This document shows positions 2,455 through 6,188 of a stretch of 64,000 nucleotides of DNA, piece by piece. Both the position numbers and the translations under genes were made by a program. Source of the DNA: Planctomycetota bacterium (GTDB lineage: Bacteria > Planctomycetota > UBA8742 > UBA2392). The notes beneath the pieces were generated by a model. The model worked only from the letters and a program-made list of their open reading frames with translations, was not told the DNA's origin and did no database searches. The stretch lies in the NCBI GenBank assembly GCA_003576915.1, contig QEVF01000001.1, forward strand, positions 62,001 to 126,000, in the 5' to 3' direction. Within the stretch, counting starts at the first letter, position 1; the number at the start of each line of letters is the position of its first letter.

Positions 2455-4314
2455 TCAGGCAAGGCGGCGACGCAGCGCTACGGCGCAGGCCGCCAGCAAC
2501 GCCAACAGCAGCAGGCCATAGCCGCGTTCACTGCCGCTGCTGCAGCGGGCGTCACCCTCGCCTCCGGCCTGTCCGCCCGTGTTGGGCGGCACCGCGCCGA
2601 ATTCGTAACTGCCCATGTCGGCCACCCCCACGTTGCGCGGCGCCTCGCGTTGATCGGTGCCCGGAGCGCCGGCCCCGCCCGCATCAATCGCGGGGCTGCC
2701 CGTCAACAAGGCATGCGTGGGCGTACGTCCGCCGTTGTTGGCCAGAGGGCCCAAGAGCGCAGCTAACGGCGAGCCCGCACTGCCTACCTTGCAGCCGTTT
2801 ACGTTGTTCACAAAGGCCGCGCCGCTGTCCTGCACCCCGATGAGATTGTTGCCGCCGTTCAGCAGGCCGCTGCTGACATCCGGCGCGCCCGAAACGCTCG
2901 TGTTGCCCGCGACGATGCAACCCACCACCGTCACCGTACCGCTGACCCGGTTAAGACCGCCCGTGGACCCCCCGGGCGCGGCATTGCCCGTGATGGTCGA
3001 ATAGGAGACGTTCACCGTGGCGCCGCTGACAATCAGCCCTGTGCCAGTGTTGTTGCCGCTGATGGTCGAGTTGATGACAACCGCCGCCGGAGAAGACGCG
3101 ATGGAAAGCCCGCCACCGCCGCAGGCTGAAACCGTCGAGCGTTCGAACGTGAAGTTGTCCGGCGCGGCATAAGACAGGCCGCCGGTAAACTGGGCTACAG
3201 CCAGTCCGACGCGGCAATTGCAGGCTCGAACGTGGGTGTCCGTCACGGTCGTGTCGAACTCGAGGTAGAGGCCGCCGGCATCCAACAGGTTGCCCGAGGT
3301 CACCCGGGCCTCGCACAGCTCAATGAGACAGCGCGCGATGGCCACCGTGGGCGTGACGGCCGGCGCACCAAACACGTTGACGCCTCCGCCACGCGCAGAG
3401 CCGCTGCCCGTTCCCGCCGTCGCGGCCTGAGCCAGGCAGCTGCGGAGGGTCACATTGGTCAGGGAGAGTGAATGGACTGCCTCGATTCCGCCTCCGGTTC
3501 CGCTTCCGGGCGTTGAACTTCCGCCGTTGCCGCCCAGGGCCGTGCACAGCTCGATCACAGAGTCAATCAGCGTGGTGGGCACATTGGCATACATGGCGGC
3601 CCCCGCGCCGGCGCCGCCGGCCGCGGTGCCCGCGCCGCCCGTCGCCGTGCAGTTCTGAATCGTGAGCTGGGTGAACAATCCGGATCCGCTCTGAACGAAG
3701 AGCGCACCCCCCACGGCGTCGCCCCCGTTGCCGGCACCGCCGCTGCCGCCACTGGCCGAGCAGTTGCTGATGAGCGAATTGGTGATGCTCAGGTTCGCGA
3801 TCGCCGGAGCATGGCAGATGGCGCCGCCGCGCCCGCTGCCGCCGCTGCCTCCGGCGGAATTGGCGCCGTTGGCCTGGCAGTTCGTAATGAGGACGTCAAA
3901 GAGAATCAGCGTACCACGACTGTAAATCGCGCCTCCTTCAGCGTCGCTGCCGCTCAGAGGCGCCCGGCCGCCCGACAGCGTCAGCTTGGACATGGCCAGA
4001 ACAGACGCGAGCTGGGTGTCGATGATGCGGACGGCGTTGCCGCCTGAAATGGTCAAGAGGGCGCGGCCGGGCCCCTGGATGTCGATGGAGCCTCCACCCT
4101 GCAGCACCTGGGGCAGGGACGACGAAAGCGTGATGGTACCTGTCACGCCGGCGCCGAACACGATCGTGTCATTGCCCGTCACCGTGTTGGCCTGGGTAAT
4201 GGCCTCGCGCAGGGAGCCGGGCCCGCTGTCATTGAGGTTGGTTACCGTGAGGGTCGCGGCAGTGAGCGAAGGCGCAAAGGTCAATGCAATCAAGAGCAGG
4301 CAATTCAGGCGCAT
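2455..4314 (-). CDS. Secreted right-handed beta-helix protein with C-terminal sorting-type tail
   Basis: The product is 619 residues. It starts at the ATG 4314-4312 behind a GGGAGAA ribosome binding site. Residues 1-19 form a signal peptide ending LTA. Mature residues begin with the pattern [17 protein letters not shown], typical of CSLREAI/choice-of-anchor Q polymorphic outer membrane-like beta-helix proteins. The body is rich in Gly, Asn, Thr and Ser with repeated I/L-x-N/D-C turns, consistent with stacked coils of a parallel beta-helix. Near the C-terminus [20 protein letters not shown] is the usual closing motif of this family. The last ~30 residues are a Cys (C591), a hydrophobic run ([15 protein letters not shown]) and RRR, resembling MYXO-CTERM or related tripartite sorting signals. 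Likely exported and surface anchored; ligand unknown. Confidence 0.85.
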
Positions 4315-4393: not shown

Positions 4394-5434
4394 CTACTTC
4401 GCCTTCCACTTCTCGGGCTCGTAGGGTTTGAGGATCGATTTGCCGGCTTCGAAACCGGCATCCTGCAGGGTGCGGACAGGCTTTCCGTCCTCAATCACCT
4501 GCGCCACACCGTCGCCCGGCAGCCACAGGCAGATCCAGGTTTCGATGAGGTCCTGGGTCAACACATAACAGGGCAGATCCACGCCGTTGACCTTGAGCGT
4601 CTTGGTTACGGGCTTTGCGCGATCTGGGCCCTCGTAGGTCTTTAGTTCAATCCTGGTCCCGTTGCGGGTGACGCTCTGCGCACTGCACTGCTCAAAGGTC
4701 ACTCGCTCTTTCTGGCCCGCAACGGTGTAACTCAACCAGGATCCGGAGGTGCAGGCACGCAGCGGCAGCAGCCGGTCATCGGCCACAGTCCAGGGCTTGA
4801 GGCTCTTCTCGGCCTTCAGCTTGAGGCGGATGGGCTCGGCGCTGACCCAGGCCCACTTGCCGGCCACGCGGCCCAGGGGAGAAATCAGGTAGGCGCTGTT
4901 AGGCAGCTTGCCAAAGGCGGTCTGGACGCTGCTGTCCATGTCGTCCACCAGGACCCGCCAATGCTGCTTGCCCGCTGATTTCAGTTCGCGCGCCGCCTTG
5001 ACGCGCTCTTCGTAATTCTTGTGGTTGTCGATCTTCACCGGATTGTTCTTCATCCGCCAGCCGCCAGTGGCGCCGGCCTCCGCCCGCGACTCCGGGCCAT
5101 CGTCGGGGTGGGCCTCTTTGGTGTAAACAAACACAAAGGCGACCTCGGCCCCGAATTCCTTCTGAAGCTTCTCCATCTCGCCGAACTGGCGCACGCAGGG
5201 CGGTCAGGTGTAGCTGCCAAACTCCATCACCACCCAGGAACCCAGGTAGTCCCTCAGGTCCATTTCCTTCCCTTCGGTATCTTTGAGGTGCAGGCGCGGC
5301 GCCAGGTCACCGACCAGCGGCTGTGATTTTTCGAAGTCAGCAAAGGGGCCTGCCGCCTTGGGCTGGCGCTGGGCCCATGCGACCGACAGGCATAGCGTCA
5401 GCAGGGCAAGGCCGATGACGGAGCGCCTAAACAT
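4394..5434 (-). CDS. Deiodinase-like thioredoxin-fold selenoprotein (in-frame TGA read as Sec)
   Basis: One continuous reading frame of 346 residues runs from the ATG at 5434 (GAGGA ribosome binding site 7 nt upstream) to the stop at 4394, interrupted only by TGA at 5206-5204. The TGA falls in FGSYT-U-PPC, exactly where iodothyronine deiodinases (T4_deiodinase family) carry selenocysteine in FGSxTUPP. Similarity continues downstream of the TGA: EAH-x-x-DG (residues 107-113), GW-x-x-x-NN (125-131), I-x-NH-x-N, AA-x-x-L, VD-x-M and LP-x-x-Y-x-I, all family landmarks. Residues 1-21 are a signal peptide, so the product acts in the periplasm or at the surface. The Sec is part of a U-x-x-C redox pair (U77, C80), unlike the UPPF of animal enzymes, which favours a thiol/peroxide redox role over deiodination. 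About 140 C-terminal residues form an unrecognised extra domain. A conventional gene caller would split this into a 76- and a 266-codon fragment. Sec incorporation is inferred. Confidence 0.85.
5179..5206 (-). promoter_or_regulatory. UGA codon and candidate bacterial SECIS hairpin
   Basis: The UGA (5206-5204) is followed in the mRNA by a CGCC/GGCG stem closing the loop AGUUC (5191-5179). The G in loop position 2 is 18 nt after the UGA, which fits the general bacterial SECIS pattern (short hairpin just downstream of UGA, G near the 5' side of the loop). The stem is only 4 bp with possible non-canonical extension, so the structural support is modest. Confidence 0.5.
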
Positions 5435-5485
5435 GATTTGTCCTCGGGTGCAGACATATCACCCCGGGGGCGCCGGCAGGTTGCG

Positions 5486-6160
5486 TCATTCCGCCGCATT
5501 GCCCACGAAATAGGCCAATAGCAGTTGCACCACCATGGAGTAGCGACCCAGGCCCGCCAGGGTTTCAGGCAGGGGGCCTTCCAGTGCGTCCACTCGAAGG
5601 TGCAGCACCAGATAGGCAAACAGCAGCGCGTACGGGGCCAACAGCGCCAGCACGCCCAGCGCGCGCCACAGGTGCGGCCTTGAGCGGGGCCAGGCCATAC
5701 GCTTGAAGTACGCCAGGGCACAGGCCGCCACCAGTAGAGGCGAATACCAGAATACGAACCACCAGAAAGGATGGTGGGGCGGCGTAAATCCCGTCTGTCG
5801 GGCCACCTCGCCCTCCAGCCATCCGGCCAGGCCGCAGACGGCCGGCAACGCGAAGAACAAGACGAAGGCCGCATATCGTGGCATGCGGCGGGCCAGAAGC
5901 TGCTGACCCCGGTTGATGAGATTCCAACCGATGAGGGAGGACAGCAGCAGGGCCAGCACCGTCCACCTGACAAGGTCGTCGGACCCCTCGCCCAGGCTCC
6001 ATGCCAGGGCGCATACGACCAAGGCGCACAGGCCAACCCAGCCCCCCACCCGGGCCACGCCCTCTATGCCCCGGTCCAGGCGGGCCTTCAGCGCGCGGCC
6101 ACGCACCGCTGCCTTGCCCCCCGAACGCGAAGCCACCCTGATGAAGGAACGCCTGGACAT
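5486..6160 (-). CDS. Multi-pass membrane protein of unknown function
   Basis: The product is 224 residues. The ATG at 6160 is preferred to the GTG at 6163 because GGGGAG lies 4-5 nt upstream of it. A basic N-terminus (Ser/Arg/Lys-rich, residues 1-35) is followed by about five to six hydrophobic segments (for example VGLCALVVCALAWSL, WTVLALLLSSLIGWNLI, AAFVLFFALPAVCGLAGWL, LLVAACALAY, LGVLALLAPYALLFAYLVL, YSMVVQLLLAYFV). No family is recognised. It lies 28 nt after the ABC permease gene and 51 nt before the selenoprotein gene, all on the same strand, so it probably belongs to the same transcription unit and may act with the ABC complex. Confidence 0.75.
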   Translation of the reverse strand: MSRRSFIRVASRSGGKAAVRGRALKARLDRGIEGVARVGGWVGLCALVVCALAWSLGEGSDDLVRWTVLALLLSSLIGWNLINRGQQLLARRMPRYAAFVLFFALPAVCGLAGWLEGEVARQTGFTPPHHPFWWFVFWYSPLLVAACALAYFKRMAWPRSRPHLWRALGVLALLAPYALLFAYLVLHLRVDALEGPLPETLAGLGRYSMVVQLLLAYFVGNAAE

Positions 6161-6188
6161 CACTCTCCCCTGCGCCGCCGCTTCGCGG

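Follow-up and report, generated by a model that had tools for sequence, protein, structure and literature searches.

A predicted deiodinase-like selenoprotein gene with a putative U-P-P-C redox pair in a Planctomycetota genome

The dioU gene and its product

The stretch of DNA considered here (the window) covers 64,000 nucleotides of contig QEVF01000001.1 of a Planctomycetota bacterium (assembly GCA_003576915.1, positions 62,001 to 126,000) and carries on its minus strand a gene, which we call dioU, for a predicted deiodinase-like selenoprotein of 346 amino acids. The frame (4394..5434) runs from an ATG at 5434-5432 to a TAG at 4396-4394, and its sole in-frame TGA, codon 77, lies at 5206-5204 and is predicted to be read as selenocysteine (Sec, U). 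By eye, a GAGG that may be the ribosome-binding site is found 7 nt 5' of the ATG (5442..5445), and the beginning of the gene (5372..5434) encodes a hydrophobic segment (MFRRSVIGLALLTLCLSVAWA) resembling a signal peptide of the general secretory (Sec-type) pathway, so that export of the product is predicted. The remainder comprises a thioredoxin-fold deiodinase domain (residues 39-213, 4796..5320) and a C-terminal all-beta domain (residues 222-346, 4397..4771), for which a Pfam search gave no match and whose structural likeness to LolA/RseB/YmcC-type folds is weak.

An earlier sequence-only reading of this locus had proposed that a single frame crosses the TGA, which is borne out by reading the gene from its ATG to its TAG, and had listed the motifs FGSYT-U-PP, EAH-x-x-DG, GW-x-x-x-NN and NH-x-N, all of which occur as written (in full FGSYT-U-PPC, EAHPDDG, GGWRMKNN and NHKN). 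The length of this frame is in itself no evidence, since a TGA with 76 or more open codons on its 5' side and 200 or more on its 3' side is found at 22 places in the window (dioU and 21 others, some of which are a true gene end with an open frame behind it). Four observations do go beyond chance: the match to the family before as well as after the TGA, the location of the TGA at the catalytic codon, an excess of synonymous over nonsynonymous change on either side and a pooled peak of RNA folding just downstream. The read-through product scores 80.7 bits against PF00837 (T4_deiodinase, gathering cut-off 27) and the downstream open reading frame of 266 amino acids (aa) by itself 53.9 bits, in agreement with the claim that both sides belong to this family. 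Codon 77 aligns with the catalytic residue of mouse Dio3 (Sec170, a Cys in the crystal construct), exactly where it had been placed.

The active-site network of Dio3, as set out in PMC7506546, is retained: Ser167, Thr169, Tyr197, Glu200, His202, His219 and Arg225 align with S74, T76, Y104, E107, H109, H138 and R144 of the dioU product, and the top structural matches of the predicted fold are animal DIO3 and DIO2. With these enzymes (PDB 9h48, 4tr3) dioU has in common the thioredoxin fold, F-G-S-x-T-U-P-P, EAH, the second His and the Arg, but it has in addition the predicted signal peptide and the C-terminal domain. Relative to Dio3, it has Cys80 (5195..5197) at position U+3 in place of a Phe, Tyr75 in place of Cys168, a longer loop from EAH to the second His and, in our own reading of the alignment, Asn179 for Glu259 and Gln83 for Arg176. 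The thioredoxin fold is also common to the ResA/TlpA/DsbE-type thiol-disulfide oxidoreductases, whose CxxC spacing is like that of U and C here.

These comparisons bear on what the enzyme may do. A selenoprotein acting as a reductive dehalogenase, in the manner of a deiodinase and on iodinated or brominated aromatics, would fit the structural matches and the shared network, but not the replaced Glu and Arg, the longer loop and the UxxC, a motif of thioredoxin type, and we regard this activity as unlikely. We lean towards a general thiol/peroxide redox role; thyroid-hormone deiodination is unlikely, and "deiodinase" is for dioU a family label, not an activity.

Conservation of the TGA codon and folding of the RNA

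A match to the dioU protein at E <=0.001 is present in 140 of 199 genomes of the phylum (here and below the window's genome is included), although many of the weaker matches span only a short part of it and may be other redoxins. Loci in the Planctomycetota metagenome-assembled genomes JABARW010000022.1 (87% identity) and JADLFN010000048.1 (72%) are among the relatives. For 30 genomes the catalytic codon of the top-scoring locus was read, which gave TGA in 28, TCG (Ser) in one (L027) and TGC (Cys) in one (L035). Another stop codon at this position in relatives had been named by the sequence-only reading as evidence that would speak against it, and none occurs among these 30 loci. The Ser variant L027, a close relative, keeps the Cys at +3, and its protein (P0008) also matches T2SSG; in P0026 and P0027, two deiodinase-like database proteins, the Sec position is occupied by Ser or Thr (SYSSPTF, SYTTPTF).

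Nonsynonymous and synonymous substitution rates (dN/dS) relative to the nearest relative are 0.03/0.26 for the 64 codons before the TGA, 0.04/0.30 for the 122 codons after it and 0.09/0.28 for the 147 codons of the C-terminal part, the first 22 alignment columns being left out. Each of the eight pairings of the window gene with a relative gives a dN lower than dS in every one of these parts, dS being saturated for the most distant relatives.

A bacterial selenocysteine insertion sequence (SECIS) is predicted at nt 15-38, numbered with the T of the TGA as 1 (5169..5192). According to the Fig. 2 legend of PMC13188914, such elements have a loop of 3-9 nt, a stem of 4-16 bp, a G in the first two loop positions, a spacing of 16-37 nt and a minimum free energy of -7.5 kcal/mol or lower. 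The minimal hairpin of dioU (5191-5179) agrees with these rules, with a loop AGUUC (G at position 2), a stem CGCC/GGCG of 4 bp, a spacing of 16 nt and a minimum free energy of -12.2 for 53 nt, its stem and spacing being at the lower limits. When nt 15-38 of 28 genes were pooled, the folding energy was -228.6 kcal/mol, against a null mean of -130.7 (sd 10.1), and none of 300 synonymous recodings was as low. A scan along 27 genes (L029 was dropped, as it lies at a contig end) gave z -6.2 at start +12 and -5.3 at +18, with nothing below -2.1 elsewhere; z was -3.2 at +12 for nine genes of the dioU clade, delimited below by its Cys at U+3, and -5.8 at +12 and -5.5 at +18 for 18 genes outside it. 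All these pooled and z values are somewhat inflated by near-identical relatives.

Were the TGA a true stop, dioU would be a pseudogene broken by a nonsense codon, or two genes of which the downstream one starts at GTG 5194. Database entries indeed treat what follows the TGA as a protein of its own, in some cases as a hypothetical protein, TGA-bridged frames of this length are common in the window, and its own hairpin is insignificant singly. Nevertheless, a stop would not account for the presence of TGA here in 28 of the 30 loci, across families, for dN below dS on either side or for the pooled folding excess, and breaking the gene at this point would divide the predicted thioredoxin fold in the active site; we therefore consider it very improbable. 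The database entries themselves confirm, for the downstream half, the mis-annotation that the sequence-only reading had foreseen. A homologue search restricted to proteins between 0.55 and 1.75 query lengths returned 26 proteins, one of them the window's own (P0002), which begins after the Sec codon; 20 of the 25 others are of 225-312 aa and cover 62-77% of the query, as if they too started there, and this start was seen directly in 19 of the 20, P0016 being judged by length and coverage only.

Selenocysteine machinery and the weight of the evidence

The genome to which the window belongs, an assembly of 59 contigs with a completeness of 87.36%, carries the whole Sec machinery that the sequence-only reading had suggested looking for and whose complete absence it had named as a refutation: a tRNA-Sec with a UCA anticodon (73.7 bits), selA (548.6 bits), selB (312.1 bits) and selD (385.8 bits), each above its cut-off. 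A further place scoring 51.2 bits, likewise above the cut-off for tRNA-Sec, was rejected as an ordinary tRNA-Ser. The selD gene (G000:C56:18681-19601, L016) has its own in-frame TGA in GAG-U-GCK, which we take to be the Sec/Cys site of SelD, so SelD is itself predicted to be a selenoprotein. TGA terminates five of the eleven genes between 2455 and 13324 of the window, and the genetic code is thus standard. A TGA read as another amino acid, through reassignment of the codon (for instance TGA=Trp) or near-cognate read-through, has the open frame alone in its favour and, given these five terminators, the full Sec machinery and a residue that is the family's catalytic Sec/Cys position, is very improbable.

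Among the matches listed, TGA-bearing ones occur in 72 of the 199 genomes; in 28 of these 72 the TGA was verified to lie at the catalytic position, and some of the short matches may represent other Sec redoxins. It thus looks as if the deiodinase fold were a common Sec protein of the Planctomycetota. A selA gene over the cut-off is found in 138 of the 199 genomes, namely in 66 of these 72 and in 72 of the remaining 127 (Fisher p 7.6e-8, uncorrected for shared ancestry).

Several observations weigh against dioU being a Sec-decoding member of the family. The genome is a draft (87% complete), and the score against NCBIfam NF038285 (deiodinase_rel), 90.3 bits, is below the curated cut-off of 250. 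The window hairpin is no stronger than dinucleotide shuffles of it (z 0.48), and 33% of synonymous recodings of the window gene fold equally well (P 0.33); only 12 of the 28 genes are singly at P <=0.05, L030 folds worse than its own null mean, and secondary minima appear in the scans, at z about -2.5 (-48, -18 and +102) in the nine clade genes and at -2.4 (-6) in the 18 others. Six of the 72 genomes with a TGA-bearing match lack selA over the cut-off: G186 has a contig-end fragment of 263.5 bits, G078 a weak match of 50.3 bits, and G040, G098, G162 and G175 none. Of the 16 genomes of the same family as the window's, six lack a match of dioU length, having short ones at most. Finally, the relative with Ser at the Sec position (G004, L027) does possess selA, from which it follows that Sec is not indispensable for the scaffold.

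With these points taken into account, dioU is a real, conserved and very likely Sec-decoding gene that stands apart as a variant within an already known bacterial family, and the decoding of TGA77 as Sec is, from the comparisons above, highly probable. For the whole of our proposal, an exported Sec-decoding redox protein of the deiodinase family with its machinery, its SECIS and a Sec-Cys cycle, we estimate a probability of about 0.87. TGA77 would be decoded by the genome's own selA, selB, selD and tRNA-Sec, guided by the predicted hairpin just 3', and the protein, of predicted thioredoxin fold, would be exported. Sec77 would then attack an oxidised substrate (a peroxide, a disulfide or possibly an organohalide), Cys80 of U-P-P-C would form a Sec-Cys bond with it, and this bond would be reduced by a thiol relay. 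A DsbD_TM protein encoded in the same genome (114.3 bits) might supply an exported thiol enzyme with reducing equivalents.

Putative exchange of cysteines, gene neighbours and known relatives

Cys at U+3 is confined to 11 of the 30 rows of the alignment, as UPPC or, for the Ser variant, SPEC. Conversely, 15 of the 19 rows outside the clade, but none of the ten clade rows that extend so far, have a Cys in a particular helix column, 54-66 residues past the Sec. In a tree of 29 rows (L029 left out) the UPPC rows and the Ser variant lie together on one side of a branch with a support of 100/100, and the pattern may thus have arisen only once. These data suggest that the resolving thiol was swapped between the distal helix and the U+3 position and that U77 and C80 are the redox pair of dioU. 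Two of the four rows outside the clade without the distal Cys, L032 and L033 (both UPPF), have a C-x-x-C 200 residues downstream of the Sec, perhaps in a fused thioredoxin-like domain. For Dio3 it is debated whether Cys168 or Cys239 acts as the resolving thiol (PMC7506546), and re-reduction is described as a peroxiredoxin-like cascade in PMC11592359.

A membrane protein of 225 aa (5486..6163, minus strand), without a Pfam family above cut-off and with two conserved Cys columns (7/7 and 6/7 of the aligned sequences), is encoded directly upstream of dioU. This adjacency is found in eight of the ten carriers of a Sec-dioU of the clade (the window, G001, G002, G005, G007, G011, G012 and G013), the homologue being on a different contig from dioU in G006 and G016. 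A homologue occurs in 15 of the 16 family genomes, including six without a full-length dioU match among the matches listed, and a search of G004, which has the Ser variant, did not find one; a functional tie between the two genes is for these reasons uncertain. A gene resembling, by eye, the 24-kDa subunit of NADH:quinone oxidoreductase lies upstream of the dioU region in L052, L054, L055, L056 and L060. Downstream of dioU, 2455-4314 encodes a large beta-helix protein (PF13229) whose C-terminus, a hydrophobic stretch with Arg residues, looks by eye like a surface-sorting signal.

Bacterial deiodinase-like proteins with Sec or Cys were reported in 2005, with a suggested redox function (PMC1088965), further ones were found in the Global Ocean Sampling (GOS) data (PMC2398784), and two reviews list the PF00837 motif as UxxC (PMC13188914, PMC9312934), the table of the GOS paper giving none for this family. 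As such selenoproteins, UxxC included, are already in print, dioU is not new in kind. With those of the Sargasso Sea and GOS it shares PF00837, bacterial origin and, as predicted here, a catalytic Sec and a bacterial SECIS, but the available portions of their descriptions (PMC1088965, PMC2398784) are without Planctomycetota members, a C-terminal beta domain or the inverse pattern of UxxC and distal Cys. Selenoproteins of Planctomycetes are described in PMC4807772, where neither "deiodin" nor "iodothyronine" occurs in the main text as available, and among the papers listed in literature searches no title or start of an abstract dealt with the dioU clade or its Cys exchange. The UPPC site, the loss of the distal Cys, the longer loop and the extra beta domain look new. 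It is conceivable, though we think it improbable, that animal deiodinases go back to a broad bacterial pool of exported seleno-redox enzymes, of which this clade would be a rewiring, with the resolving thiol moved from a distal helix to U-P-P-C and a lipid-carrier-like beta domain added that would pass hydrophobic oxidised or halogenated substrates to the selenium.

The analysis also illustrates how annotation truncates selenoprotein genes at the Sec codon, as 20 of the 25 database homologues are without the part that bears the active-site nucleophile. For the family itself, the putative exchange of the resolving Cys provides natural variants with which the thiol that regenerates selenium in deiodinases (Cys168 or Cys239 in Dio3) becomes testable.
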